Assembly: GCF_029360705.1 (NCBI RefSeq)
Contig: NZ_JARKMX010000002.1
Location: 1-64,000 of the forward strand
Direction of reading: 5' to 3'
Origin: Paraflavitalea pollutisoli
GTDB lineage: Bacteria; Bacteroidota; Bacteroidia; Chitinophagales; Chitinophagaceae
Length of the DNA stretch: 64,000 nucleotides
The number at the start of each line of letters is the position of its first letter. Position 1 is the stretch's first letter. The position numbers and the translations under genes are program-made. Under the pieces are notes generated by a model. That model saw only the letters and a list, made by a program, of their open reading frames with translations. It made no database searches and was not told the DNA's origin. This document shows positions 18,127-38,464 of this stretch, one piece after another.

Positions 18127-18169
18127 GCTTTCGCAGGTTTTCGGGTCCCGGATGCAAATTAACGGAATA

Positions 18170-21100
18170 TTAGAAACGCATGCCTACAACAATGTAGGGT
18201 AACCAACCTTCGCTGGACCAACCTGCCAGGGCACGCACCACGACCATCTGCGCCGGCGCAAAGAACAGGCCTCCGCCGACACCATTGTGCCATTTACCCG
18301 ATTTCTCGCCATCCTGCCATACCCGGCCTATATCGTAAAAGCCTACCATACCCATCACGCCGGGCAGTACATAACCACCGACATCGGCGATTTTCACCCG
18401 CAACTCGAGGTTGTTGTACACACTATGGTCGCCGGCGAAACGGTATTGCCGGTAGCCAAGCAGGTTTTCGTGACCGCCCAAAAACACCGATTGGTAGAAG
18501 GTAGTTTTACCCAAGGTTACCGCGCCTCCGAGCCTATTGGCCAGTACGATGGTACTTCTGGCGTTGAGTGGTTTGTAAAAGGCCACCTCTGGTATGATCT
18601 GCGCAAAAGATTTCGAGTATTGGTTCACCCCTTTGAAACCTTGTATGCGTACGTTGATGTAGGAACCCCAGGTGGTCAGTACGGTATTGTTTCGCTTGTC
18701 GCGGATATAATTCAGGATAATACCGACATGTGATTTATCGTCGGCGATGGTCGCACTGTCATACGAACCGATAGCTGCCGTGTTCTCGATGAAACGGCCT
18801 TTATTGCCTTCATCGTCGAACCGGTAGATCTGTGCGGCTGGGCCGATGGCGAGACTGCTTCCCTTGGTGGTACCCCAACGCAGCGCTGCCCAGGCCTGGT
18901 AGGTATTGAAGCGGGTGCGGTAGTAAGTACGGAAGCCATCGATCTTATCAAACTCCGATTCATTGCCGCGACCAAAGAAGTTGATGGTATTATTGGGCGC
19001 TTTGATGATGGCCTGGGTGATGATATCAGCCTTGCCCAACGCCTGGATCCACTCGCCCCGGTAATCTACTTTATAGGCTTTGGTAGAAAAGGAATGGGAT
19101 ACCAGCAATTGCTGCAGGCCCGAATATTGTGCCACTTTGGTGTAGGGCTTTTTACGGAAACCCTGGCGGCGGATATGGCGGAAGCCAGCTCCCAACAGGA
19201 AGCCATCATCTACGTTGAGCCCGATCGTACCCAGCGGCTGGGTGACATTGTACAGGTCGACGGGATTGAAAGACGTAAAGGCACTATCGTTGGAAGAACG
19301 TTTACGCAGGCGGCCGGCATCTCCATAAAAGCTGGTATTGTCTGTACGGTTGTACAATTTGATACCTCCTTTGCCATCGACCGCCGTATAGGCTTTCGTG
19401 CCTTCACCACCTACGACGCGCAGACGTATTCCGTTATTAGTATTGTTGAAGCGCACACTGTCGTTGCCTTTGGCCAGGTAAAGCCTTACTTCTTTGGTAT
19501 CGGCTGGGTCGAAGGTCTTTTTGAAGAGCTGGTCTTCTGTTTTGCCGCTCTTGGATAATTTATTGACCTGTACCGTGATGCCATTGTTCGGAGCATCTGT
19601 GATCTCTACCAGCTCATGTTTATCGGTCGCTTTTACATCGACGATCTTATTGATGAAATGGTAGTACTTGTCCATGGCTTTGGGCAGGTTGTTGCGCCGG
19701 TCTTTCAGGATACGCAGAAACTCGTCGTGGCGCAGCTGGTAGGCCGCTGCCGGCAAACGCTTCAAGCCTTCTTCCAGGACGGAGTCGGTGACCTGGGCCA
19801 CAAACTCATTGGCAATGCGCATCCAGTCTTCATAACTGAACTGTACGAGGAACCGGCCATTGAGGTAACGGCTTTCCCACAGTATGCCCTGAATGTTGTG
19901 GTAGTCGCTTTCAAATCCCTGCAGAAAAGGCAACAGCCAGTTCCATTTGGCGATGCCGGGGATCACGCCGTTGTTGACGTAGAAGACCTGGTCACGGTCA
20001 CGCGGTACGGCGAGGTATTTTTTCCCTTTACCATCTTTCTCCGGGAACCAGCGCCACTGGTCTTCGTGGCGATCCCAGTCGCCTATGAGCAGGTCGAGCA
20101 TACGCGCCCGGAGGTAGGCCGTGCTATCGAAGCTGTTGTCATTGTCTTCATCTACTTTGCGCCGCATCTTGGGGGTATTGTCGGAATCACCGAGTGGCTC
20201 CCGCAGTTCCAGCAAACACAAGGTATTGGCGAATGTATTGGAATAAATGCCGAGGGCAGTATCCGGCGCTACGTAGCCAATGATGGGCTCAGCATGTGGA
20301 ATACCCAACTGTTTCGCTATTGGCGGTACGATCACGGCACCGTAAGGATAATTGGAAGACATGTTGTCCGATAGCAGGTCCTTCACAAAAGTTCCGCGCA
20401 ATTCCTCGGGCAACAACACATCCGGATATTTCTCTACGCTGCGCAGGGCCCACTCTTTACCTTCTTTATCGAGCAGGCGTAAGGATTTCGACTGGTGGCC
20501 ACCACCCAGCCGGCTGGGTGTCAATCCACCTTTTATTTCCGAAATACGCAGCACCGGGAAGGTGGTAGGTGTGGCATAATCCTTCCGGTAGTTTTCACCA
20601 AAGAGCCAGCGGTGGAATCGGCCCACGCTGTCAAACCGGGCTACGGGTGCCATTGTAATGCTGTCTGACGGGATAGCCTTGATGGCCAGTTGCTCCTGCT
20701 CTTTTACTTTCACATACACCTGTGTATAGGAAAAGGCAGGTGTTACTCCTTTTTCGGTGGCTACATAATAAGTGAAACGAAGGTTGTTGTTGAGTAGCAG
20801 ATCGGCAGTCACAAAGCCTGATTGGCTCGAAGCATACAAGGCGTTCTTGCCTTTCCTGGCATAGTTGCGCTTGGCTCCTGCCCCACTCACCACCTGCACT
20901 TCATTGCTTTTGATGAATTGCAGGCCATGTTCATGTCCGGCGGCATAAACCAGGTTGGGTATCCGGTCGGCGACGGCACTCACCTGTTTGATCATCTCTT
21001 TGTACCAGGGGTGACCCATATCTTCGGGATTGACAATCGTTTTACGAAGGATGGGATACAATGACCCTACAATTGGCAGGGGGATGTACAGGTTCTTATT

Positions 21101-21793
21101 GATGGCTGTAAAGGGAAACAGGTGATCCACGATAGAATAATAGCCGCCATGGTGGCCATAGGATTGGAAGGGGTGGTGTGCGGCCAGCAGGATCATTTTA
21201 TACCGGTTCTTGTACAGCAGTTCGATCAACTTAGCCACCACGTCTTCCTTGGTACGGCATCCGCAATCGGCCGCATTGCTGCTTTTATCGTAGGGGAATA
21301 ACCACCATTCGCTGTCGAAGGCGATGATCGCCAGGTTGTCGCCCAGGCTGATCTCCTGTGGATCGGGGCAGCCATTCGGTGGCAGCATCTTCAACAGGGA
21401 GTCGTTTTGCTGTTCCAGGAAACCTGATTGGGCCTGGATCTTGGCGAGGCCTTTGGATCCCATCCTGTCCCAGTCGTGGTTGCCTGGTACAAAATAAACG
21501 GCAGCGCCATTGCTGCGCATGGGAGAAAACTGCGACCGCAGGATATTTTGCGTGCTTTCTTCTTCTTTGGAGCCCGGCAAGCCCATGCCTTTAGGGTAGA
21601 TATTATCACCCAGGTACATGACGGTCGTCTTTCCTTTCTTCACCATCTCTGCCGCCATGGGTATCACGTGCTGCTGCTCCTGGCTGATCTCTCCGGCATC
21701 GCCAATGAGTATCACCCGGTGTACTATGCTATCCTGTGCCTGCGCCACAGAGCCAGATAAAAATAAGATAAGTGTGTATAGCTGTTTTTTCAT
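18170..21793 (-). CDS. Three-part outer-membrane protein: metallophosphoesterase, kinase-like middle, BamA-type barrel
   Basis: Protein of 1207 residues with a signal peptide (1-20). Residues 25-350 are a calcineurin-like phosphoesterase with metal motifs at D32 (LIGDAGE), D63-N64 (YLGDNIYP), N105-H106 (GNHDWD), AAHHPFQSYG and AGHEHG. Residues about 430-720 hold an unassigned domain with a kinase-like signature: ALRSVEK near 450, then D572-W-D-R-H576-E-D-Q-W as a catalytic-loop look-alike and PRDRDQVF with D599 and D601 as a metal-loop look-alike. Residues about 840-1207 are a beta-barrel with the GYRQYRFAGDHSVYNNLELR block of the BamA/TamA type and a C-terminal aromatic (GMRF). It is 28 bases downstream of ppk1 on the same strand, so a role in polyphosphate or phosphate handling at the cell surface is plausible. 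Confidence 0.78.
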   Translation of the reverse strand: MKKQLYTLILFLSGSVAQAQDSIVHRVILIGDAGEISQEQQHVIPMAAEMVKKGKTTVMYLGDNIYPKGMGLPGSKEEESTQNILRSQFSPMRSNGAAVYFVPGNHDWDRMGSKGLAKIQAQSGFLEQQNDSLLKMLPPNGCPDPQEISLGDNLAIIAFDSEWWLFPYDKSSNAADCGCRTKEDVVAKLIELLYKNRYKMILLAAHHPFQSYGHHGGYYSIVDHLFPFTAINKNLYIPLPIVGSLYPILRKTIVNPEDMGHPWYKEMIKQVSAVADRIPNLVYAAGHEHGLQFIKSNEVQVVSGAGAKRNYARKGKNALYASSQSGFVTADLLLNNNLRFTYYVATEKGVTPAFSYTQVYVKVKEQEQLAIKAIPSDSITMAPVARFDSVGRFHRWLFGENYRKDYATPTTFPVLRISEIKGGLTPSRLGGGHQSKSLRLLDKEGKEWALRSVEKYPDVLLPEELRGTFVKDLLSDNMSSNYPYGAVIVPPIAKQLGIPHAEPIIGYVAPDTALGIYSNTFANTLCLLELREPLGDSDNTPKMRRKVDEDNDNSFDSTAYLRARMLDLLIGDWDRHEDQWRWFPEKDGKGKKYLAVPRDRDQVFYVNNGVIPGIAKWNWLLPFLQGFESDYHNIQGILWESRYLNGRFLVQFSYEDWMRIANEFVAQVTDSVLEEGLKRLPAAAYQLRHDEFLRILKDRRNNLPKAMDKYYHFINKIVDVKATDKHELVEITDAPNNGITVQVNKLSKSGKTEDQLFKKTFDPADTKEVRLYLAKGNDSVRFNNTNNGIRLRVVGGEGTKAYTAVDGKGGIKLYNRTDNTSFYGDAGRLRKRSSNDSAFTSFNPVDLYNVTQPLGTIGLNVDDGFLLGAGFRHIRRQGFRKKPYTKVAQYSGLQQLLVSHSFSTKAYKVDYRGEWIQALGKADIITQAIIKAPNNTINFFGRGNESEFDKIDGFRTYYRTRFNTYQAWAALRWGTTKGSSLAIGPAAQIYRFDDEGNKGRFIENTAAIGSYDSATIADDKSHVGIILNYIRDKRNNTVLTTWGSYINVRIQGFKGVNQYSKSFAQIIPEVAFYKPLNARSTIVLANRLGGAVTLGKTTFYQSVFLGGHENLLGYRQYRFAGDHSVYNNLELRVKIADVGGYVLPGVMGMVGFYDIGRVWQDGEKSGKWHNGVGGGLFFAPAQMVVVRALAGWSSEGWLPYIVVGMRF

Positions 21794-21821
21794 GGTCAGT
21801 TAGTTCGTTTATCGTAGCGTC

Positions 21822-23870
21822 TTACTGTTTTGTTGTTGATTTAACTCGGAGATACTGGTAGATGGCTTCTTGTGAGCGGACCTTCTCCCCTTCGCTTTGT
21901 ACCGGGTGATTCTGCAGCCTGGCATCCAGTTGAACAGCCTGTACATTGTCACTCAGTTGCAATTGCAGGATATGTTTGACCTCTTCCTGGATGTCCCGGT
22001 CATACACGGGGAAACAGACTTCAATGCGCCGGTAGATATTGCGATCCATCCAATCGGCGGAACCCATGTACAACTCTTCCTGTCCGGCATTGTGAAACAG
22101 GAATACCCGCCCATGCTCGAGGTAGCGGTCAACAATGCGTTTTACGGTGATATTTTCGCTCAGTCCGGGTAACCCGGGCATGAGGCAACAAATACTGCGT
22201 ACCAGCAGTTGTATACGTACCCCTGCCTGCGAAGCTTCGTACAATTTGGCGATGAGCTTTTTCTCTTCGAGGTTATTGAGCTTGATGGTAATGGCAGCAG
22301 GTATGCCTCTCTTCGACAGGTCGATCTCACGGTCGATGAGGTCGAGGAATACTTTCTGCAGGTTGAACTGGGCTACCAGCAGCTTATTGAATTTAAGCGA
22401 AGCGCCGGCGATCTTCCTGCGCTGGCTAAGTAGCTGGAACAATTGTTCCATCTCTTTCAGCATGGCATAGTCTGCCGTCAGCAATATATGATCGGTATAG
22501 AAACGTGCTGTACTTTCATTGAGGTTGCCGGTGGCGAGTAACCCCGCGTAATACACCCCGATCTTATCCTTTCTTTTCACGAGGGCGATCTTGGCATGCA
22601 CTTTCAGGGAGGCATCGGAATAGAGGATCTTTACGCCGGCATCTTTCATCCGCCGGGCCCAGCGTATGTTGTTGGCTTCATCGAAGCGGGCTTTGAGCTC
22701 CACCAGTACGGTGACCTGCTTGCCATTCTTTGCGGCGCTGATGAGGGCATGCACGATCTTCGAATCATCGGCTACGCGGTACAGTGTCACATAGATCTCG
22801 GAGACTGCCGGATCGATGGCCGCTTCATTGAAGAAGCGTAATACGGTATTATAGGACTGATAAGGGGGATGCAGCACAATGTCTTTGGCGGCAATGGCAT
22901 CAAAAATAGATTGGCTACTGGCCGCGACAGCCGGGATGATCGATGGCCAGGCCGGATACTGTGGTACCTGGCTATTGAACGGCAGGGACGCGAGGTCTTT
23001 CAGGTTGTGGTAAGTGCCGCCGGCTACAATACTGGCATTGGTCAATCCAAACTGCCGGATCAATGCGTCGAGGCAATCTGCCGGAAGCCCGGGCTGGTAC
23101 AGGAAACGGGTGGCGAATCCATAATCCCGTTTGCTGATCTGTTTCTCGATCTTACCCGCCATGTCTTCTTCAAAGTCGTCGGTAAGCTCCAGTTCGGCAT
23201 CACGGGTGATCTTACCATTCCAGGCGCCGGTAATCGTAGCGTCACGGAAAATGGCCGGCAGGTGTTGCCGGATAATATCTTCCAGGAAAACGATATAAGT
23301 TATGCCATTGGCAGTAAAAGCTTTGAAGCGGGGCAGACTGTCGGAGGGTATGTTGACAATAGCATATTCCGTTTTTCTGCCGGGCAACTGCAGGCCTGCC
23401 ACGAGGTACAGCTTGTTGTTGGCTGGAAAGAAATCGGGCCGCAGGCTGGACAAGAAAACGGGTTGCAGGAAAGCCAGTACCTGCGTAAAGAAGTATTCAC
23501 ACAACTCGGGCAATATCTCCACCGGTAGTGGTGTATTATATAATAGCCTGAGCTGGTATTGCTCCAGCTGCGGGAGTATACCGGCAATGGTTTGTCCATA
23601 CAACTCCTGCTGCCGGTGTATGATCAATTTGGCTTCTTCAAGTGCGCCGGTATAAATAGGTTCTTTCGCGGCTTTCGATTTATTGATCTTCTGCAGTGCC
23701 ATCAGGGCGGGCATACGCACGCGATAAAACTCGTCGAGATTGGAAGAATAGATAGACAGGAACCTGATCCGTTCGGCCAGCGGCACCGTAGGCCGGCCGG
23801 CTTCCATCAGTACCCGCTCGTTAAAAGAGAGCCAACTGAGATCCCTGCTGAAAAAATCGGTTGTATGCAT
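21822..23870 (-). CDS. ppk1: Polyphosphate kinase 1
   Basis: Protein of 682 residues, full length for PPK1. The N-terminal domain begins RDLSWLSFNERVLMEA, the usual opening. The two phospholipase-D-like catalytic domains follow: HPPYQSYNTVLRFFNEA, LKARFDEANNIRWARRM, and the phospho-acceptor His H425 in LKVHAKIAL with the LLATGNLNEST block; the second has H593 near FLFHNAG and GSADWMDRNIYRRIE. It makes polyphosphate from ATP reversibly. It heads an apparent two-gene operon with the phosphoesterase-barrel gene. Confidence 0.93.
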   Translation of the reverse strand: MHTTDFFSRDLSWLSFNERVLMEAGRPTVPLAERIRFLSIYSSNLDEFYRVRMPALMALQKINKSKAAKEPIYTGALEEAKLIIHRQQELYGQTIAGILPQLEQYQLRLLYNTPLPVEILPELCEYFFTQVLAFLQPVFLSSLRPDFFPANNKLYLVAGLQLPGRKTEYAIVNIPSDSLPRFKAFTANGITYIVFLEDIIRQHLPAIFRDATITGAWNGKITRDAELELTDDFEEDMAGKIEKQISKRDYGFATRFLYQPGLPADCLDALIRQFGLTNASIVAGGTYHNLKDLASLPFNSQVPQYPAWPSIIPAVAASSQSIFDAIAAKDIVLHPPYQSYNTVLRFFNEAAIDPAVSEIYVTLYRVADDSKIVHALISAAKNGKQVTVLVELKARFDEANNIRWARRMKDAGVKILYSDASLKVHAKIALVKRKDKIGVYYAGLLATGNLNESTARFYTDHILLTADYAMLKEMEQLFQLLSQRRKIAGASLKFNKLLVAQFNLQKVFLDLIDREIDLSKRGIPAAITIKLNNLEEKKLIAKLYEASQAGVRIQLLVRSICCLMPGLPGLSENITVKRIVDRYLEHGRVFLFHNAGQEELYMGSADWMDRNIYRRIEVCFPVYDRDIQEEVKHILQLQLSDNVQAVQLDARLQNHPVQSEGEKVRSQEAIYQYLRVKSTTKQ

Positions 23871-28239: not shown

Positions 28240-29130
28240 TTACTGACCAATCTTAAAGCGAAGCACCGCTTCTCCCCCCAGCTCGATCTGGTCGCCATCC
28301 TGGAGATGATGGGCGATACCGTACATATTGAGCATTTTGATGCGATCATCAACCGTGTGTACTTTCACTTTGTTGCCACTATCGGGCAGACCGCCTTTAT
28401 CGGGATACAGCAGGTATTTGTTCTGTTTGGGATCGTACACGATATATGCGTGGTTACGGCTTACGTGCAGGTTGGCTTTGCCAATCCCTTCATCGTAGCC
28501 CGGCTCGCCGCTGGCGAGAAAGACAATATCATTAAGCTGTACTTTGCCGGTGGACAGTTGGGGAGAACGGCTACGGCCAATATTAAAGCGTAGCTGTATG
28601 TTCGGATCTAGCAGGTATTCGAATTGTTCTGCCTGACCCACCAATATCTGCAGCATCGCCGTGGTGAACTTCTCCTTCACCTGATCACCGGCACGCGTCA
28701 CTTTGATACCGTATGTGCCGTGCTGGATGCACTCTGCCGGCAATTGATCTCGCACCAGCTGGTATTCAAAAAACCAGTTGGGTTCCAGTTGTATGAACTG
28801 ATTGGCCAGCTTACGTTCCAGGTATTCGGCCTGAAAAACCCCGGGCTTGTCTGCATACAACGCAATCTTCGCCGCCTCTTCCTGCTCCTGATCAGCACAC
28901 AACACATATAGCCGCATGCCGGCCAGTGACATACCTCGTTCATCCACATAGGGCTTCAACGCCTGTATGATGAATTTGGTGATCGCTTCCCGTTTGATGG
29001 GCGTCACGGGCATTATGGTATTGGCGGGTGCGGGTGGCACCGTATCTGTTGTTGTGGCGGTTTGCGTTTCTTCCGGCTCATCTTCCGTAAGCCCAAAGCT
29101 TTTCTTCAGTTTGTTGATCAGGCTTTTCAT
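28240..29130 (-). CDS. FHA-domain protein, last gene of the kinase/phosphatase/PBP operon
   Basis: Protein of 296 residues. An acidic, Thr-rich start (EDEPEETQTATTTDT) offers possible phosphorylation sites. Residues about 48-175 form a small alpha/beta domain (KREAITKFIIQALKPYVDERG, AAKIALYADKPGVFQAEYL). Residues about 188-290 are an FHA domain with FNIGRSRS, HVSRNHAYIVYDP and LQDGDQIELGG; FHA domains bind phosphothreonine. There is no membrane segment. It lies 41 bases after the RodA-PBP fusion gene, so it probably reads phosphorylation by the operon kinase. Confidence 0.85.
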   Translation of the reverse strand: MKSLINKLKKSFGLTEDEPEETQTATTTDTVPPAPANTIMPVTPIKREAITKFIIQALKPYVDERGMSLAGMRLYVLCADQEQEEAAKIALYADKPGVFQAEYLERKLANQFIQLEPNWFFEYQLVRDQLPAECIQHGTYGIKVTRAGDQVKEKFTTAMLQILVGQAEQFEYLLDPNIQLRFNIGRSRSPQLSTGKVQLNDIVFLASGEPGYDEGIGKANLHVSRNHAYIVYDPKQNKYLLYPDKGGLPDSGNKVKVHTVDDRIKMLNMYGIAHHLQDGDQIELGGEAVLRFKIGQ

Positions 29131-29171
29131 TGTACTACTTTTTATAGGTGACCGGTCATTGCCGGAATTAA

Positions 29172-32100
29172 CTAAAACGATCCCATATAGTTTCGCCGTT
29201 GTAACACTTTGGCAATGGTATTGGCCAGTAATACCGCGTTGGCAGAGCTTTGCCCTTCTTCTATTCGAATACAGGCAACCGTGTACGAAGTATTAGCCGC
29301 GTTGGGCGCAAAGAATACATACCAACCGTCCGAGAGCTTTTCACCGCGCACAATACGTTCCGGTGTACCGGACTTACCAGCTACACGGGTGTCTTTGATC
29401 TTCAGCTTACCGGGTGTGCTTGACTGCTCGATCATGTACTGCCGCAGGATCGACGCATAGGCCGTATCCTTTGCTACCTGTACGGGGGTAGCTGCCGGCA
29501 CGTCGGATCCGGTAGCCCGGATCACATACCGCGAAGGCTGCAGCACACCGCCGTTGGCGATACTACCTGCCATCCGCGCCATCGAGGCGGGTGTGGCTGT
29601 CAACACACTCTGTCCCCAGGCGAGACCAGAGAACTCACTTCTATACCGTTTGGTGGTGCCTGCATACTTCGGGTTATTGTATTGCTTGCGGTCCTGATTC
29701 AATACGGTACTGCGCCAGGCAGCCAGGTCGGCCGAAATCTGTAATCTGTCGGCGGTATTGTTGTAATTGTACCCTCCCCGTTGTGCGAGGTTCATACCGG
29801 TCGCTTCATACAGGGTGGCCATTTCCTCTTCGAGGTGTTGCTCATTGGCCAGGCGAATGAAATAGATATTGCTGGAGTTGATGATCGCTTCGCGCATATC
29901 CACGAAGGGTACTTTCGGAATAAATGGTTCCTGCTCCCGTTTGTTGTCGCGGAATATCTCGTTGCGGGTGATGTCCGTGTATTTTACTTCTGTAGCTGCC
30001 AGGCCCATTTTATTAAGGCCGGCCATGGCTGTCAGTATCTTGGCCGTAGAACCTGGTGCCGTAGCATAGGTCATCCCCAGGTCTCTTTCCGTAACCGGCA
30101 TTTCGAGTCGCAGTCGCTCCCGGTCGGGCAGTTCCATCAATTCGGGCGATTGCAGGTTGGGCAATGGATACAAGGCAGACGCCAGTATATCGCCAGAGAC
30201 GGCATCCAATACAACCACCGACATACGCCGGTTTTTGAACGCACTGTTCGCCAGACTATCCTGCAATTCTACCTGCAAGGCAGCATCTACCGACAGGTAT
30301 ATGTCCCTGTCTTTGTCGCGGATGGCTTTGATGGTTGCCTGGTTGCTGTCGATGCCACTCTTCAACCCTTCTACCAGGGCCGTATAGTCATAGCACACCA
30401 TGGGTACAGCCTTGTAAAATGGTTTGGTGAATCGGTCGGGTTGGTATTGTGTGTAGACCGAATCCTGTATCTCGCGACTGATACCAAAACCACGCAGGGC
30501 CGTCAGGTGACGGGCTTCTGCGAAATAACCATTGGCCTGCCCCCAGAAGAGGCGGGTATTGTAATCGCCCGTCCAGAAATACAGTTGCGAAGCAAAAGGA
30601 TAAAACCGGCGAACCCGTTTGTGCACGAGGTCAGACAAATCACTGGCTTCCAGTCCTGCTTTCTTCAGCGAATCCAGGTGACTGGTCAACACCTCGGTTT
30701 CGCTGGTTGCTACGGGTAATCCATACCGGTCGTATACATTGCCCGCTGCCAACAGGCGCATCAGTTTATCGATGCGGGGATTGTAACTATAGACGGGTAT
30801 GCCATTGCGCATCACTACCCGCGCCTGCTTCACGATGTACTGATCGCGCTGCAACACCTGGATGGTGAGCACCTTGGTCGCGAGCGCCACGATACCCGCG
30901 AGGAAGAATACAATGCCTGTTGCCAGTACGGGATCATAATAGCGTTGAATCCTTTCGCGCTGCACCTCCTGCCCTTCCCGGGCCGATATGCCGGCCACGA
31001 TACCCATGGCCGCCAGGTTGATGATCAGCGATATCTTACCATAGCTGAGAAAGGGCACGGCGACGCCAGTCAGTGGCAGCAACCCTATAGAGCCCCCTGC
31101 GATGATCAGCAACTGAATACCGATGGTAATGGCGATGCCGGCGCAGAGATAAAAGGTGAAAGGATGGCCTGAGCGGCGTGCGATCAAAAAGGTACGATGG
31201 ATCAGTACACCGAATAATAAGAGAATAGCCACCAATCCGAGCCAACCCAACTCTTCTCCGATACTGGGCAATATCATATCGGTATGAGAGGCGGGCATGG
31301 TGTTGGGGAATCCCTTGCCGATACCCTGACCGGTCAATCCACCCGACGACAGTGTCCAGTAACTATGGGCGAGGTGATCACCACCAAACACATCGTTGTT
31401 CCATTGGCTGAGCCACATGGCTTTGCGGTCGGCCAGGCGTTGCCCGATACCTGGCACCCGGTCGCCAAAAGCGAAAGCAGCGATCACCAGGATGATGATC
31501 ACCGGCGCATCGGCAATGGCGGCGAAAGCACCATACCATTTGGTACTGCGCAGATGACCTTTGGCCAGCGAAGTGACCAACACGAGCAGCAAGGCCGTCG
31601 CCGTGGCCATCCAGCCGGGTAGCCACAACAACAATAAACCATACACGACACCAGCCAGCACCGTGAGCAAGAGGTTGCCGCGGGCAATGCTATAGAAGAA
31701 TAAGAAAGTAAAACACACCACCAACGCCGGCCCCATATCGCCCATCATCAGGTACAAGCCGAGGATGGCTGCTATCCCTGCGAAGACGCCCCAATTGACC
31801 AGGAAGCGCCAGCGTATATCCGAGTAATTGCGGATCCCTTCTTCATTGGCGGCAAAGAAGGCTGCCAGGAAAAATAACAACAGGTATTTGGTGATCTCGC
31901 TGGGTTGGAAGGTGAGTCCCGCCAGCTGAATATTGACCTTTACACCGCTGCCTTCCGGTCCGGTACCGATCGCCAGGGTCAGGAGAGCCAGTAGTATCGC
32001 GAGCGCCAACCAGGTATATCCCTTGTGCTGGTAGATATTCTTTTGCCGGAAGTTGAACAAGGGATCGAACCACCAACGGGCATACCATTTACCGGGATTG

Positions 32101-33224
32101 AACGAGGCTAATATGGTGTAGGCTGCCAAGCCCGCGACAATACCTTGCAAGGTTTGGAAGGCATGCAAAGAATCCGTGAGGGGATTTTGTATGCTGAAGA
32201 GTGTAAGCACTGAGATACCACACAGCAACAGCAACACCGGCAGCAAATAGCCGTCTGGTTGTTTCTTACGAACAGAAAGGATCAGTTGTACCAGCAGGAA
32301 AGCCAGGATGAGGCCACCGGCAATGATCTGGAAGCTGGTGCGAAAGTCGTCGGGTGTGCGCACGATCAGGGCGCCATCTTCCTTTAGCTGTCCATATACG
32401 ATGGAGCCGATCAAACGAAGCTTGTGCGGCTTTGCGGTGAAAGCATAATTGGCTTTGCCATTCAGGGCGCTGGTGCCTTTGCGGCTTCCGAATTCAAACC
32501 CTGGCTTGAGCGGCAATACACTGTAGCCGGAATCGCGGTACAGTCCTGCAAAGCTGAACCTGCCCTGAGCATCGGTACGTGCATACCCAATGATACCTGT
32601 CAGCGAATCTTCTTCCAGGGAAGGGATGTGTTGGCGTAGTTGCACCAATACCCCCGCCATTGGTTGATCCTGGTTCAGGACCAGGCCACTCATCTCCTGA
32701 TCGCCGGTACCGATGGTTGACTTACCCGCAGTAGCCGAGGACACGCCACTCATTACGCCGGCATTGGTGGCACCCGAAAGCTCCTGTACATATAGTGCTG
32801 AATCGAAGCCCAATCTTATGCGGGAGGCACGTAGCCTGTCGGCAAAGTCGACGCCACCAATGGACGGTTTCCAATCAAGGGGTGCTGTAATGGCAAAAGC
32901 CCCTTTATTGAGGGCCCCCAGGTTGTCGGGCTTACCGATAGCCAGTAACCGTACTGAAAGGGTATCGACCAATAACTCCGCGTCTTTCGGATCTGAGAAA
33001 TAGCTGCCGTCACCGATCACTTTTCGCAGGCGGTCACGATCCATGAATGGATCGAGCGTTACGGCTCTGCCTTCCAGTAGCAAGGTATCGGTGCGATCGA
33101 GCTGGGGTGCAAGGGCTTTGTACAATTGAAAGAAGAGCAACAGCAAGACAAGGGCGGCGCCGCTGAGCAATAACCAGCCTTCTTTGCGTTGTTGTTTACC
33201 CGTGTATGTTACCTTCTCGGCCAT
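29172..33224 (-). CDS. RodA/FtsW glycosyltransferase fused to class B penicillin-binding transpeptidase
   Basis: Protein of 1350 residues combining two peptidoglycan enzymes. Membrane helix 1 is at about 18-38; residues 40-290 form a periplasmic region with an Ig/carboxypeptidase-regulatory-like segment near 183-260. A multi-helix SEDS domain (about 300-790) carries FQPSEITKYLLLFFLAAFF, LTGQGIGKG, HTDMILPSIGEELGWLG and VPFLSYGKISLIINLAAMG. A further helix leads to the transpeptidase (about 850-1340) with S1059-T-A-K1062, S1117-S-N1119 and K1284-S-G, the SxxK, SxN and KSG/KTG triad. SEDS proteins polymerise glycan and class B PBPs crosslink it; here both are one chain. It starts 18 bases after the kinase gene. 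Confidence 0.92.
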   Translation of the reverse strand: MAEKVTYTGKQQRKEGWLLLSGAALVLLLLFFQLYKALAPQLDRTDTLLLEGRAVTLDPFMDRDRLRKVIGDGSYFSDPKDAELLVDTLSVRLLAIGKPDNLGALNKGAFAITAPLDWKPSIGGVDFADRLRASRIRLGFDSALYVQELSGATNAGVMSGVSSATAGKSTIGTGDQEMSGLVLNQDQPMAGVLVQLRQHIPSLEEDSLTGIIGYARTDAQGRFSFAGLYRDSGYSVLPLKPGFEFGSRKGTSALNGKANYAFTAKPHKLRLIGSIVYGQLKEDGALIVRTPDDFRTSFQIIAGGLILAFLLVQLILSVRKKQPDGYLLPVLLLLCGISVLTLFSIQNPLTDSLHAFQTLQGIVAGLAAYTILASFNPGKWYARWWFDPLFNFRQKNIYQHKGYTWLALAILLALLTLAIGTGPEGSGVKVNIQLAGLTFQPSEITKYLLLFFLAAFFAANEEGIRNYSDIRWRFLVNWGVFAGIAAILGLYLMMGDMGPALVVCFTFLFFYSIARGNLLLTVLAGVVYGLLLLWLPGWMATATALLLVLVTSLAKGHLRSTKWYGAFAAIADAPVIIILVIAAFAFGDRVPGIGQRLADRKAMWLSQWNNDVFGGDHLAHSYWTLSSGGLTGQGIGKGFPNTMPASHTDMILPSIGEELGWLGLVAILLLFGVLIHRTFLIARRSGHPFTFYLCAGIAITIGIQLLIIAGGSIGLLPLTGVAVPFLSYGKISLIINLAAMGIVAGISAREGQEVQRERIQRYYDPVLATGIVFFLAGIVALATKVLTIQVLQRDQYIVKQARVVMRNGIPVYSYNPRIDKLMRLLAAGNVYDRYGLPVATSETEVLTSHLDSLKKAGLEASDLSDLVHKRVRRFYPFASQLYFWTGDYNTRLFWGQANGYFAEARHLTALRGFGISREIQDSVYTQYQPDRFTKPFYKAVPMVCYDYTALVEGLKSGIDSNQATIKAIRDKDRDIYLSVDAALQVELQDSLANSAFKNRRMSVVVLDAVSGDILASALYPLPNLQSPELMELPDRERLRLEMPVTERDLGMTYATAPGSTAKILTAMAGLNKMGLAATEVKYTDITRNEIFRDNKREQEPFIPKVPFVDMREAIINSSNIYFIRLANEQHLEEEMATLYEATGMNLAQRGGYNYNNTADRLQISADLAAWRSTVLNQDRKQYNNPKYAGTTKRYRSEFSGLAWGQSVLTATPASMARMAGSIANGGVLQPSRYVIRATGSDVPAATPVQVAKDTAYASILRQYMIEQSSTPGKLKIKDTRVAGKSGTPERIVRGEKLSDGWYVFFAPNAANTSYTVACIRIEEGQSSANAVLLANTIAKVLQRRNYMGSF

Positions 33225-33242
33225 GTAGCTGTACTGGTTGAT

Positions 33243-34991
33243 TTATTGAGTTCCTTTTACAATGAGCTGATCGAATGATACGGTTTGCGCGCCATCGACC
33301 CGCATGCCGAAGTAGCTGCCGAAGCCGCGGTCAAAGGCCAGGGTCTTCTCCAGCCGGTCGTTGATGAGAAAATGAAGGCTGCTGCCTTGTTTCTCTACCG
33401 TGAGCATATTCATACCGGCATCGGGCCGGATATTACCGGATGGTGTCCAGTCGACGAGTACGTGCCATTCATCCTTGACGAGCGAGCCAATGGAATAGTA
33501 GCCATTGGAAGTGATGTAGAATACGAACCAGGCATCCTGCTGCTGATCACCGCAAAAGTTGATACCAAAGGGATCGCCCGCGCTATCTCCCCAATGGGTG
33601 GTATTGGCGGATATGGTAAAGTCCTTATCGGTATCGATGTTGAACTTGGCGGCGGTAGAATAGCTGAGACTATCGGCAAAGCCTTTCATCACGTATTTAC
33701 CATCGACGAGGTCAAACTCACTGGTCTCGTCTTTGCCAATATCCCATATACTGTCCAGCGGGTTGCTGAAGTCGTTGTAGTAAATGCCATTATTGAGTGA
33801 AATTCCAGGCTGCGCAGCAGGCTCGTTGGGGGGCATGCTGTGGTGATCAGCCAATGGTGCCTCGGGACCACTGATGGCATCGCCTGGTGATCTACGTTGC
33901 CCATGTGACAGGTTGTATTTCGGGTCCTGCACCTTGGTGGGCATGAGTTCAGGTGGGGTTGTTTCAGCGGCGCTGGCCTTGGACCTGACCAATGTGGTCC
34001 AGGAGAAAAACACGGCACCACTAACCAGCAAGAGCACGACCGCGATAAACGTGATGTCCTTGCGTTTACCGGCCTCCGGCTTTACCGGCGCTACATACTT
34101 CACCGTCTCGTTGCGCACGGGTGGCTCCAGGGTACGCATTCCGCGCAGGTCTTCGAGGGCAGCCATCTTCAACAGGTGGCGCACTTGTACGGGATCGGCC
34201 AACCGGTGTGAGCCCTGCTTGGTCAGCAATCCATCCAGCAGTAATTGCAGGCTGGGTGGCATGGACCGGTGCATGGGCAGTACCGGACGTGGAACGGGTG
34301 AAGCGATCACCCGGTTGATGTGCATCAACAGGTCATCCTGTTCGTATTCGAATGGTACTACACCTGTCAAACATTCATATAAGACAATGCCCAACGAATA
34401 AAAATCAGTGGGCGTGGACACGTTCCTGGATTGATTGAACTGCTCGGGCGACGCATAGTCGTAGGTCAGCATCGAGGAGCCGGTGACGGTGACGGAGTCT
34501 GACTCGCGTAATTTGGCGATCCCAAAATCGGTGAGCAGGAATTGTACTTCACCAGAGGGTAGCTTACGGTACATGATGTTCTCTGGCTTCACATCGCGGT
34601 GTACGACGGCTTTGGCATGTATGGCGTCGAGTGCTTCGGTCATCTGGTGGGCCAGCCTGATCAATACCGGTATATCCAGGGTTTGGTGTATCCGCAACAG
34701 GCTGCGCAGGTCACCACCTTCTATCAATTGCATGACGATGTAGGGCAATTCCGCATCCAGGTGCACTTCCAGGATCTTCACGATGTTGTCGTGCTGGATC
34801 GACTTCATGATCTCCGACTCGCGCTGAAACCTGCGCAGGGTATCGGGATCGGTGTTGAAGGCAAAATGTTTGATCGCTACCAGCTCTCCGGTGAGCATAT
34901 GGCGCGCTTTCAATACCCGCGCGTTACCCCTGCCCAGTTCACCGAGGATCTCGTAGCCTTTGAAATACTCTTTAAAGATCGAAGTAGCCAT
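33243..34991 (-). CDS. Transmembrane Ser/Thr protein kinase with periplasmic sensor domain
   Basis: Protein of 582 residues. The PknB-type kinase domain (about 12-270) is complete: GELGRGNARVLKAR, K41 in VAIKHF, HRDVKPEN with D133, TDFGIAKL with D155, and ASPEQF. One membrane helix lies at 312-334. The extracytoplasmic part (about 400-582) is not PASTA repeats but a jelly-roll domain like LamG or family-16 domains (NDFSNPLDSIWDIG, WFVFYITSNGYYSIGSL, SLHFLINDRLEKTLAF, YFGMRVDGAQTVSFDQLIVKG). It therefore may bind a glycan and signal across the membrane. It lies 2 bases after the PP2C phosphatase gene and 18 before the RodA-PBP gene. Confidence 0.92.
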   Translation of the reverse strand: MATSIFKEYFKGYEILGELGRGNARVLKARHMLTGELVAIKHFAFNTDPDTLRRFQRESEIMKSIQHDNIVKILEVHLDAELPYIVMQLIEGGDLRSLLRIHQTLDIPVLIRLAHQMTEALDAIHAKAVVHRDVKPENIMYRKLPSGEVQFLLTDFGIAKLRESDSVTVTGSSMLTYDYASPEQFNQSRNVSTPTDFYSLGIVLYECLTGVVPFEYEQDDLLMHINRVIASPVPRPVLPMHRSMPPSLQLLLDGLLTKQGSHRLADPVQVRHLLKMAALEDLRGMRTLEPPVRNETVKYVAPVKPEAGKRKDITFIAVVLLLVSGAVFFSWTTLVRSKASAAETTPPELMPTKVQDPKYNLSHGQRRSPGDAISGPEAPLADHHSMPPNEPAAQPGISLNNGIYYNDFSNPLDSIWDIGKDETSEFDLVDGKYVMKGFADSLSYSTAAKFNIDTDKDFTISANTTHWGDSAGDPFGINFCGDQQQDAWFVFYITSNGYYSIGSLVKDEWHVLVDWTPSGNIRPDAGMNMLTVEKQGSSLHFLINDRLEKTLAFDRGFGSYFGMRVDGAQTVSFDQLIVKGTQ

Positions 34992-34993
34992 GG

Positions 34994-36397
34994 TTATCGC
35001 TTGATGTTGTGCATGATCAATAGGGAAGGATGGCTGCTATCGGCTTTCACAAGATTTTGGAATGGATATTTGATGTTCTCGAAGGAGAGGTTGTCGGTCT
35101 TCAGCATTACAGGCACCTGTACGCTAAAGCCGGTTTCGAACTGAGCAAGTCGGAGGTTTTTCAGGAGGATGGTGTCACCGGGCTTTGCCGACCTTTCATT
35201 GATGGTGATGGCGGCAAAACGGGTCTTGTTCTTATCAGCGGGCAGTATCACCAGGGTTCTTCCAACGCTATCGGCATATTGCCGGATATAGTTCCAGCTT
35301 TTCGAGGTGCTGATCTTCAGGGTGTCTGTCTTTTCTTCTACCGGGCCGGGCACGGCGGTATTGTTGACCCGAACGGCTGCGCCTGCCGTTTTAATACTAT
35401 CGATGGGCAGTATGCGGGGTGGTGCTACATCGATGGGGCGCGGCGGGGCCATAAACCACCCCATGCCTGCCAATACGGCTACCGTAATACCGGCTATATA
35501 GATATTTCTGCGGAAGGTGCTGCGCACTGGCTGTATCACCTCCGCAGACTGCGTTTCTTCTTGTGCAGCTTGCGTTGCCTGGCTATGGGGCTTTGCGTCG
35601 TGGGCTTGTATGGCCGGCGCTGTGACGGTCACTTGCTTTTTCGCAGGGGCTTTTCTTTTGAGCAACACCACCGTGATGTTGTCATTGCCGCCCATTTCGT
35701 TGGCCAATGCCACCAGGCTGTTGACCTTGTGGGGCAGCGCCTGGGTAGTACCCAGTATGGTGGTGATCTGCCTTGAAGTAATCATATCGGTGAGCCCATC
35801 GCTACAGAGCAACAACTGGTCCCCGGGCAGCAACGCTTCGCTGCCATAATCCATAAAGTCTTCATCATCGAGCCGGTGCAGGGTCGACCCTACTTCGCGC
35901 AATATCTGGTTACGTTGGGGATGGCTCATGGCTTCCTGCTCGGTCATTTCGCCCGCGTCTTCCCGAATGCCCACGAAGGAATGGTCTTTCGTGAGCTTTT
36001 GTAGCAGTCCGTTGCGATACCGGTACAGTCGGGTATCGCCTACGTGTGCATAATAGACCTGCTGCTTGGCGGCATCAGCTACCACTGCGGTCAACACACA
36101 ACACATTTCACTGATGAGCTGATCTTTCTTCCTTTCTTCCACAATACGGTTGTTGGCGTAGATCAGGGCTTCGCGCAGCATGGTGAGGGTATCGCCCTTT
36201 GGGTGCTCCATGTATTGGGCAATACTTTCTTTAGCTATCGCCGCTGCTTTTTCCCCGCCGGTATAACCGCCTACGCCATCGATCACTGCCACCAACGCAT
36301 TGTCGCTATTCCATAGCTGCCGGGCTATGAAGGCGTCCTGGTTCTCCTTGCGTCGTTTACCCGGATCGGTGGTGCCGTTTATGAGGATGTTCTTCAT
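34994..36397 (-). CDS. PP2C-family Ser/Thr phosphatase with membrane anchor
   Basis: Protein of 467 residues. The PP2C domain (about 5-247) has the metal-binding acidic residues in RKENQD (D21), VIDGVGGYTGG (D40), LLCSDGLTDM (D200) and MGGNDNITVV (D239). A Gln/Ala/Lys-rich linker is followed by one membrane helix (about 299-316) and a periplasmic tail of about 150 residues with no recognised domain. This matches the architecture of actinobacterial PstP. It reverses the kinase next door, 2 bases downstream. Confidence 0.92.
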   Translation of the reverse strand: MKNILINGTTDPGKRRKENQDAFIARQLWNSDNALVAVIDGVGGYTGGEKAAAIAKESIAQYMEHPKGDTLTMLREALIYANNRIVEERKKDQLISEMCCVLTAVVADAAKQQVYYAHVGDTRLYRYRNGLLQKLTKDHSFVGIREDAGEMTEQEAMSHPQRNQILREVGSTLHRLDDEDFMDYGSEALLPGDQLLLCSDGLTDMITSRQITTILGTTQALPHKVNSLVALANEMGGNDNITVVLLKRKAPAKKQVTVTAPAIQAHDAKPHSQATQAAQEETQSAEVIQPVRSTFRRNIYIAGITVAVLAGMGWFMAPPRPIDVAPPRILPIDSIKTAGAAVRVNNTAVPGPVEEKTDTLKISTSKSWNYIRQYADSVGRTLVILPADKNKTRFAAITINERSAKPGDTILLKNLRLAQFETGFSVQVPVMLKTDNLSFENIKYPFQNLVKADSSHPSLLIMHNIKR

Positions 36398-36400
36398 CTT

Positions 36401-36490
36401 TTATCGTGGCAGGTTTTTGAAATGCCTGATCAACAGGAACAATACGAATGCACAGAGCACCGACGTGCTGATCACGGCTCCCATATTCAT
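36401..36490 (-). CDS. 29-residue single-helix membrane peptide in the PP2C operon
   Basis: A 30-codon frame reads MNMGAVISTSVLCAFVLFLL followed by IRHFKNLPR. Residues 4-21 form one hydrophobic helix, with Arg, His, Lys and Arg after it, which suggests a cytoplasmic C-terminus. The ATG overlaps the TGA of the upstream FHA gene in the classic ATGA form, and its stop is 3 bases before the PP2C start. This packing is hard to explain unless the frame is translated. It may tether or couple the FHA protein, phosphatase or kinase at the membrane; no homologue is recognised. Confidence 0.6.
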   Translation of the reverse strand: MNMGAVISTSVLCAFVLFLLIRHFKNLPR

Positions 36491-37449
36491 TGTTGTTTAA
36501 ATTCAAGGGTAATGATCCCGTTCAACAGGATCTGGCTTTGGGGCTCGAGGTAGAACCAGCGGGGCGACTGTACATCACTGCGTGCTATCACGACCTCGTT
36601 GACCCTGGTTTCGTTGGCACTGAAAGAAGCGATCTGAAACTTGCCGGAGGCTTCGTTGAGCCGGATGCGGGCATGGGGATTGGAAACATAGTTGGACTCA
36701 ATCAACAGGTAGTTGTTGTAGCCCTGGTTTTCCGGTTCCTTGCGGGCTATGACGATCTCGGTATCCTTCATGGTATACACATCGCTCTTGTTCTTATCAC
36801 CCAGGTGGTATTCGATACGTGCCAGGCCGCCATCGAGGTTGCGGGCCTGTTTCAGCAGGGAGCCACCGCCTAACGTGAGGTCATTGCTGAACTTGACGGT
36901 AAAGTTGCCGCTTTCGGCAAAATGGATATGCCGCAACACATCGAGGTTGATGTCCATCTTATCAAATACATTGGTCGCCTTCGACTTCATCGTGACCTTG
37001 GCAGTGTGCCGCCTGTCGGCAGCGGGGGCTCCTGTGCGAATGCCGGTCAGCATGCCCACGATCTTCAGATCGTAGGGACCGATGGTTTCGCCATTGAACT
37101 CGGTAGCGGGGCCAAACCTGAATTGCCAATGTGAAGAAACTGGCGCCAGGTCTTCATAGTTCTTTTTGTAACCCTCCAGCTTCCGGTAAAACATCTTCAC
37201 CGCTTCTTTCACGACTACGGGAAAAGAAGGCAACCGTTGTTCATATACATCGGGATGAAGGATGACCAGGAAATGCATGTTGAATACCAGACTAGCGCCT
37301 ACCGATTCGGTTTTGCAGGAACCGTCGAAGCAATCGACCAGTTCATGCAGCATATCGTTATTGGTCAATGGCACCGGAACTTCCCGGGTACTTTCCGGTA
37401 CAAGCCAGTTACGCATGGCGCCCCAAATATCACCTGGACGTCTCTTCAT
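36487..37449 (-). CDS. FHA-domain protein, first gene of the kinase/phosphatase/PBP operon (FhaA-like layout)
   Basis: Protein of 320 residues. The N-terminal part (about 25-120) contains GASLVFNMHFLVILHPDVYE and AVKMFYRKLEGY, which resembles the layout of the DUF3662 N-terminal domain of actinobacterial FhaA (a strand-rich segment, HxDxYE, then an amphipathic helix); this is a visual resemblance only. The C-terminal FHA domain (about 225-318) has TEIVIARKE, ESNYVSNPHARI and EVVIARSDV-WFYLEPQSQILLNG. It has no membrane helix. Its stop codon overlaps the start of the 29-residue membrane peptide. Confidence 0.85.
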   Translation of the reverse strand: MKRRPGDIWGAMRNWLVPESTREVPVPLTNNDMLHELVDCFDGSCKTESVGASLVFNMHFLVILHPDVYEQRLPSFPVVVKEAVKMFYRKLEGYKKNYEDLAPVSSHWQFRFGPATEFNGETIGPYDLKIVGMLTGIRTGAPAADRRHTAKVTMKSKATNVFDKMDINLDVLRHIHFAESGNFTVKFSNDLTLGGGSLLKQARNLDGGLARIEYHLGDKNKSDVYTMKDTEIVIARKEPENQGYNNYLLIESNYVSNPHARIRLNEASGKFQIASFSANETRVNEVVIARSDVQSPRWFYLEPQSQILLNGIITLEFKQQ

Positions 37450-37744: not shown

Positions 37745-38464
37745 GTGACAGTAACTACTACGCATCTCGGATACCTGGTAACAGGTTTGTGCATCCTGAC
37801 CGGCATGTGGCTGAGTGTAAAAGCCGGCAAACTAACTGTAGCGGCTTCTGTAACCGCCGGCATTGTGGGCTTCCTGGTATTGGTGGGTGGTGGCTATGCG
37901 GGACTCAGCCTGCTCGTCACGTTCTTTGTATTGGGGGTATTGGCCACCCGTCATCAGCGAGCAAACAAAGCGCAGGTGTCCGGCAACGAACCAGATAGCG
38001 AAAAAAGAAAGGCCAGCCAGGTGCTGGCGAATGGCGGCGTAGCGGCCATGGTGGGGTTGATCTCCTTGCTGGATCCTACACACAGGTCATTATATGTACT
38101 GATGATGGCAGCCAGTCTTTCTGCCGCCACCGCCGACACGTTGTCTTCCGAGTTGGGGACGGTATACGGCAAACGTTTTTTCAACATCCTCCATTTCCGT
38201 AAAGAAGAGCGTGGGCTTGATGGCGTGGTCAGCGTGGAGGGAACGTTGCTGGGCCTTGCCGGCAGTACGATTATAGCTGGTATTTATGCCCTGTTCGTAG
38301 GCTTAGATCGTGGCTTCCTCGTCATCATGATCACCGGAACTGCCGGCAACCTGTTCGACTCCGTACTGGGTGCTGCGCTGGAAAGAAAACAGCTGCTCCA
38401 CAATGACCTGGTCAACCTTTTCACTACCCTCTTTGCGGCATTGCTGGTATTGTTATTCCGGTAA
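37745..38464 (+). CDS. DUF92 (TMEM19/VTE6-like) membrane protein
   Basis: Protein of 239 residues from a GTG start, with about seven membrane helices. Family hallmarks are VLANGGVAAMVGLISLL, SAATADTLSSELGTVYGKR, GTLLGLAGSTIIAGIYAL and GNLFDSVLGAALERK. In plants the family includes the phytyl-phosphate kinase VTE6; bacterial members may phosphorylate prenyl alcohols, but this is not settled. It diverges from the FHA operon across 295 bases and converges on the START gene with only 5 bases between stops. Confidence 0.85.
   Translation: MTVTTTHLGYLVTGLCILTGMWLSVKAGKLTVAASVTAGIVGFLVLVGGGYAGLSLLVTFFVLGVLATRHQRANKAQVSGNEPDSEKRKASQVLANGGVAAMVGLISLLDPTHRSLYVLMMAASLSAATADTLSSELGTVYGKRFFNILHFRKEERGLDGVVSVEGTLLGLAGSTIIAGIYALFVGLDRGFLVIMITGTAGNLFDSVLGAALERKQLLHNDLVNLFTTLFAALLVLLFR

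Follow-up and report, generated by a model that had tools for sequence, protein, structure and literature searches.

A conserved Bacteroidota operon that joins a SEDS-PBP fusion to Ser/Thr phosphorylation genes and is probably homologous to the actinobacterial cell-wall signalling locus

Genes and domains of the operon

Positions 28240-37449 of the window (the whole 64-kb stretch of DNA analysed, from a genome of 8.76 Mb) hold six ORFs on the minus strand, all of which lie where the initial annotation had placed six tightly spaced genes. Read in the order FHA_A, microprotein, PP2C phosphatase, Ser/Thr kinase, SEDS-PBP fusion and FHA_B, neighbouring genes are separated by –4, 3, 2, 18 and 41 bases, the first value being a 4-base overlap of the FHA_A and microprotein ORFs. 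FHA_A (36487-37449, minus strand; 320 aa) combines an N-terminal domain distantly similar to FhaA_N (DUF3662) with a C-terminal FHA domain that is degenerate in most relatives. The microprotein (36401-36490, minus strand; 29 aa) starts with ATG, contains a single membrane helix and belongs to a conserved family of this operon. FHA_B (28240-29130, minus strand; 296 aa), at the other end, carries an N-terminal domain without a Pfam family and an FHA domain with canonical phosphothreonine-binding residues.

The PP2C phosphatase (34994-36397, minus strand; 467 aa; Pfam PP2C_2, E 6e-14) has one hydrophobic membrane helix at about residues 299-317 followed by a C-terminal tail, and scores 197 bits against the NCBIfam Stp1 model, below the 230-bit cut-off. 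The kinase (33243-34991, minus strand; 582 aa; Pkinase, E 7e-47) is of the HRD type, with HRD and DFG motifs and one hydrophobic helix at about residues 313-331. StkP and PknE are its best solved relatives by sequence, and among NCBIfam models the PASTA kinase scores highest, at 194 bits and so far under that model's cut-off of 450. In line with the initial annotation, no PASTA repeats were seen: none matched in the window kinase, nor in six kinases from other loci. The C-terminal domain (residues 397-582; 33246-33803, minus strand) is probably extracytoplasmic and belongs to no known family, matching neither Pfam families nor PDB sequences significantly and giving no hit below E 0.01 in a PDB profile search; the jelly-roll sensor proposed initially finds no support in these searches. 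Across 139 operon kinases the catalytic loop reads HGD in 98, HRD in 38 and neither in 3, and the kinases differ between genera. A reading of the locus as a defence system was rejected, PADLOC matches being limited to the kinase and one PP2C.

The proposed SEDS-PBP fusion is indeed a single ORF of 1350 aa (29172-33224, minus strand) containing both Pfam domains. Its SEDS part (residues 327-749; 30978-32246, minus strand; FTSW_RODA_SPOVE, E 5e-49) carries the motif H647-T648-D649, and its class B transpeptidase part (residues 1001-1325; 29250-30224, minus strand; Transpeptidase, E 4e-24) carries S1059xxK1062, S1117xN1119 and K1284SG. In the alignment of 101 fusions, D649, S1059, K1062, S1117 and N1119 are kept in all 101, and K1284 and G1286 in 100, so that the SEDS aspartate and the SxxK, SxN and K[ST]G motifs, which we take to be hallmarks of the halves of a SEDS-bPBP synthase, are all present in 100-101 of them. 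Ahead of the SEDS helices lie one hydrophobic helix and then a region spanning about residues 43-293, which weakly matches a carboxypeptidase-regulatory domain (E 0.017, reaching 1.1e-9 and 1.7e-11 in the divergent loci L086 and L087).

Conservation of the gene set and of the microprotein

Near-full-length fusions (E under 1e-250) were found in 8 of 39 genomes, and FHA_B in the same eight. In a phylum-wide sample of 395 genomes, the fusion was found in 15 and not found in 380 at E ≤ 1e-60, and FHA_A (E ≤ 0.001) was found in 11, all of them within the 15. Scanning a single genome for each species returned at least 534 confirmed stretches; the best 80, which were kept, include Niastella, Pseudobacter, Longitalea, Flavihumibacter, Segetibacter, Spirosoma, Larkinella, Mucilaginibacter, Pedobacter and others, presumably members of three families.

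We read 101 loci for synteny, 100 of them with a fusion ORF longer than 1000 aa (L153 lacks a full fusion). Flanks of more than 6.5 kb upstream and more than 2 kb downstream of the fusion were available at 83 of the 100, the other 17 falling short. Beside the fusion at these 83 loci lie FHA_B in 83, FHA_A in 78, PP2C in 78 and a kinase in 77, and FHA_A, PP2C, kinase, fusion and FHA_B are all found on one strand in 77; in none of the 83 is FHA_A, PP2C or FHA_B encoded on the other strand. The count for FHA_A is an underestimate, because FhaA_N-FHA genes adjoining the fusion of L086 and L087, which Pfam recognises, escaped the FHA_A profile. The neighbours thus do not vary at random among these loci, and conservation of the gene set in other genera implies that the operon is more than a chance arrangement, with the reservation that the loci are partly non-independent (L041 and L092 are apparently the same contig, L157 and L160 come from one genome, and L151 and L170 from one species).

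The kinase gene is the variable part of this arrangement: it lies between PP2C and the fusion (the layout of the window), following FHA_B, ahead of FHA_A, or at two of these places. The kinase profile detected no kinase near the divergent fusions of five loci (L086-L090), the divergent fusion of L091 has a 265-aa kinase match about 4 kb upstream, and L103 contains the fusion and FHA_B only. In one divergent genome (L088:6762-10916), PP2C, SEDS and transpeptidase domains share a single ORF of 1384 aa, which ties the phosphatase to the synthase.

Two further copies deserve mention. Pedobacter panaciterrae (NZ_LGEL01000011.1; L157 and L160) carries the operon twice on one contig, with a broken FHA_A frame in the second copy. 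A Spirosoma oryzicola plasmid (NZ_CP089545.1; L172) carries the operon with two kinases and its genes under generic names; the microprotein is not among the genes listed in the plasmid's incomplete gene table.

The tiny membrane peptide noted initially proved to be a conserved component. A peptide of 23-36 aa with one hydrophobic helix and a motif resembling [HN]F-x-x-[ILV]-[KP] lies between FHA_A and PP2C in 89 of 92 loci by a motif-filtered count, the exceptions being L085, L098 and L123, and in 84 of the 89 it starts no more than 15 bases from the FHA_A stop codon. Counted without the filter, a short hydrophobic ORF is present in 89 of 91 gaps, some picks being in other frames (L096, L105 and L106). 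When helix and motif are both required, the reverse strand yields 0 of 89 and shuffled sequences average 0; on hydrophobicity alone, the corresponding values are 3 of 89 and 2.9 of 89. Differences at codon positions 1, 2 and 3 amount to 0.22, 0.11 and 0.39. The median dN/dS is 0.15 over 191 pairs sharing 60% identity or more, a restriction that biases it downwards, and 0.23 over the 496 usable of 892 same-length pairs.

Nine matches to the microprotein with E under 1e-6 were obtained from the 395 genomes, all in this operon, and eight more at E 0.002-0.009 look like chance; at most 20 candidates were scored per genome, so matches can have been missed. The 41 members scanned against Pfam, hand-picked for spread from the 89 and also used for the profile, matched no family (best E 0.029), and with the profile no match fell below E 1.5 at the divergent, actinobacterial and clostridial loci or at L085, L098, L103 and L123.

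FHA proteins and the ancestry of the synthase

The FHA domain matches of FHA_A and FHA_B fall under the Pfam cut-off (E 0.011 and 0.017). Foldseek searches with AlphaFold models find the FHA fold in both C-terminal domains, the matches of FHA_A including the FHA domain of Rv0020c (1.1e-5). The two proteins differ in their binding sites. In FHA_B (84 aligned sequences: the window protein and 83 of the 93 remaining from 98, ten having been left out by hand), G185, R186, S224, R225 and H227, which we take to be the phosphothreonine-binding residues, are kept in 84 of 84, and N253 in 77. In FHA_A (80 sequences: the window protein and 79 of 88 ORFs, near-copies removed), H259 is kept in all 80 and N284 in 78, and R236 is present in only 24 and S256 in only 28, leaving 56 members without the site arginine and 52 without the serine. 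Loss of phosphothreonine-binding residues, which would have spoken against the initial annotation, is therefore not seen in FHA_B and is seen in most FHA_A proteins, the window copy retaining R236, S256, H259 and N284.

The relationship of FHA_A to DUF3662 is indirect. Window FHA_A has no Pfam match to FhaA_N, and just one of the 80 FHA_A members matches, at E 0.0052. Divergent relatives do match: 5 of the 395 phylum genomes contain FhaA_N (PF12401, E ≤ 0.01), three of them above the cut-off, and these are the same five that carry a divergent fusion; the domain adjoins the fusion in L086, above the cut-off, and more weakly in L087 and L088. In profile comparisons with hhalign, these divergent relatives connect to the actinobacterial FhaA_N (3 rows; probability 90%, E 1.4e-6) on one side and to the FHA_A domain of Bacteroidia (probability 87%, E 3.8e-6) on the other. 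Direct comparison of actinobacterial FhaA_N with the FHA_A domain gives a weak match (probability 4%, E 0.011) that still exceeds those of the controls (E 0.03-0.5). The FHA_A and FHA_B profiles used hand-picked rows chosen for spread (35 and 34, respectively). The N-terminal domain of FHA_B shows no similarity to FhaA_N or to the FHA_A domain in profile comparisons, and PDB profile searches with FHA_A, FHA_B and the divergent FhaA_N set gave nothing below E 0.01. Two of the 84 FHA_B members (L087:11935-13305 and L088:10979-12253) apparently begin with a Swt1-like HEPN domain, and divergent genomes encode more FhaA_N-FHA proteins, with an extra N-terminal region, outside the operon (L180 and L182; G050:C37 and G167:C39).

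The SEDS tree of 47 rows comprised 19 of the 101 fusions, that of L039 representing the window, together with the plasmid copy L172; actinobacterial rows came from a plasmid collection, the frame-broken Arthrobacter RodA (L185) being left out. One protein labelled RodA (L203) was placed among FtsW and was counted as FtsW in the AU tests and the reduced set. The fusions are monophyletic (100/100). In this tree, whose root was not inferred and in which the fusion has a long stem, a branch supported at 100/99 sets the fusions, five RodA rows from Actinobacteria and one FHA-linked clostridial SEDS apart from the 21 other FtsW/RodA rows, and the fusion and actinobacterial RodA alone group at 92/76. 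Once four long or deep rows had been taken out, the side containing the fusion and actinobacterial RodA receives 100/98. AU tests, with groups named after the first tree had been seen, rejected constraining the fusion to the host's own RodA (p=0.0003) or to the host's own FtsW (p=0.001); the rejections were weaker in the reduced set (p=0.033 and p=0.014, respectively). Grouping of the SEDS half with actinobacterial RodA, and not with the host's RodA or FtsW, favours an ancestry shared with the fhaA-pstP-rodA-pbpA-pknB locus, and the Bacteroidota operon is, on these sequence comparisons, probably homologous to that locus.

Convergent assembly is the strongest alternative, and we regard it as unlikely. 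On this reading, Bacteroidota would have duplicated RodA or FtsW and a PBP of their own and independently combined the copies with FHA, PP2C and kinase genes. It draws on the transpeptidase tree, in which the fusion forms one group with no clear nearest neighbour, being no closer to the PbpA of Actinobacteria than to PBP2 or FtsI (this tree omitted Streptomyces and Embleya PbpA, for which no ORF longer than 350 aa was found, and the host's own FtsI, L233), as well as on the lack of PASTA repeats in the kinases checked and on the indirectness of the link between FHA_A and FhaA_N. Both rejected SEDS constraints argue against it, as does the presence of FhaA_N in the very genomes that carry the divergent fusions.

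There is also a broader possibility, on which we are close to evenly divided and lean slightly against: the actinobacterial 'RodA' and the Bacteroidota fusion might be two branches of a SEDS lineage distinct from FtsW and RodA, the third of its kind and linked to FHA proteins and to phosphorylation on Ser/Thr, with the microprotein of about 30 residues as a fixed subunit in Bacteroidota. The grouping raises doubt whether actinobacterial RodA belongs among the other RodA proteins.

A putative phosphorylation-controlled accessory synthase

Phosphorylation as a means of controlling peptidoglycan synthesis is known mainly from Actinobacteria and Firmicutes. Mycobacterial pstP is cotranscribed with rodA and pbpA, Actinobacteria conserve this linkage, and phosphothreonine is recognised by FhaA and FhaB (PMC6554272, PMC11898655); in Firmicutes, pknB-fhaA and pstP-pknB linkages are described (PMC6554272). 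Our reference loci of the fhaA-fhaB-pstP-rodA-pbpA-pknA-pknB type were those of Tsukamurella (L224), Nonomuraea (L184) and Arthrobacter (L185). Like these, the Bacteroidota operon clusters genes for FHA proteins, a membrane PP2C, a SEDS protein, a class B PBP and a membrane Ser/Thr kinase, one FHA protein (FHA_B) has phosphothreonine-binding residues, and the SEDS half falls on the side of actinobacterial RodA in the trees, judged from five such RodA rows and with the fusion on a long branch. The initial comparison with the mycobacterial locus is accordingly upheld for gene content and not for gene order, since the kinase varies in place and the second FHA gene follows the fusion.

By contrast with the separate, adjacent rodA and pbpA of Actinobacteria, the two enzymes are fused in Bacteroidota; the kinases checked show no PASTA repeats, unlike the actinobacterial PASTA kinase; FhaA_N is recognisable solely through divergent relatives; and both FHA proteins bear an N-terminal domain, the microprotein is additional, and the synthase is a third SEDS protein beside separate FtsW and RodA. 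What is new relative to the actinobacterial locus is thus a fused synthase and a microprotein within a conserved and probably homologous operon. A clostridial FHA-SEDS-PBP trio on a Monoglobus plasmid (L173) is likewise adjacent and has its SEDS on the fusion side of the tree, but consists of separate genes with a short FHA protein (112 aa), and neither PP2C nor kinase is annotated within the 12.5 kb read.

Natural single-ORF SEDS-PBP fusions exist, for which the Rhodococcus sp. RHA1 genome paper is cited (PMC10449877); like ours they are one polypeptide, and the main text of that article presents no Bacteroidota case ('bacteroid' occurs 0 times). The available portions of PMC10920833 and PMC12088040 mention no such fusion or operon, and among the titles and abstract openings of the literature matches listed, with subscription journals thinly covered, we found no report of this operon in Bacteroidota.

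All eight fusion genomes searched encode separate FtsW and RodA, making the fusion a third SEDS protein, and contain 4-6 further transpeptidase matches each. The fusion is therefore probably an accessory peptidoglycan synthase used under particular conditions beside the housekeeping FtsW and RodA. We consider it reasonably likely, from sequence evidence, that the operon as a whole encodes such a synthase under Ser/Thr phosphorylation control and corresponds, in Bacteroidota, to the fhaA-pstP-rodA-pbpA-pknB locus of Actinobacteria. The membrane kinase would sense an envelope cue through its C-terminal domain and phosphorylate threonine residues, either its own or those of the synthase or of a partner in the lipid II pathway. 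FHA_B, which has an intact phosphothreonine site and would bind the modified residue, may act together with an FHA_A scaffold to recruit or activate the synthase, and the fusion, with its conserved catalytic residues, would then polymerise and cross-link peptidoglycan as a single polypeptide. The membrane PP2C would reset the system, and the conserved microprotein may be a small membrane subunit of the complex.

The kinase module might instead act chiefly on proteins other than the synthase, in a response to envelope stress, in differentiation or in defence, for instance, with the fused synthase as just one of its outputs. The kinases and their tails do vary between genera, and the window kinase matches PADLOC defence-kinase models (best 1e-59), as generic kinases may. 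We nevertheless judge this quite improbable: the fusion is the fixed core, around which the number and place of kinases vary, and neither the fusion nor the FHA proteins match PADLOC at E ≤ 0.001. A decaying, inactive locus, as the altered FHA_A site of most members and broken reading frames in a few loci (L111, L133 and L160) might suggest, is highly implausible given the near-invariant catalytic motifs of the fusions and the retention of the gene set in 77 of 83 loci.

If the operon is a homologous accessory circuit, its occurrence in Bacteroidota that retain FtsW and RodA might permit deletion studies without killing the cell, and the conserved microprotein is a candidate regulator of a SEDS synthase.

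In the window, a divergent DUF92 membrane protein gene (37745-38464) adjoins the operon and is retained in 4 of 4 same-genus loci read. Farther along the minus strand, at 16174-23870, a sigma-54 response regulator gene, an ORF of 1207 aa that matches metallophosphoesterase and Omp85, and a polyphosphate kinase gene lie in a row.
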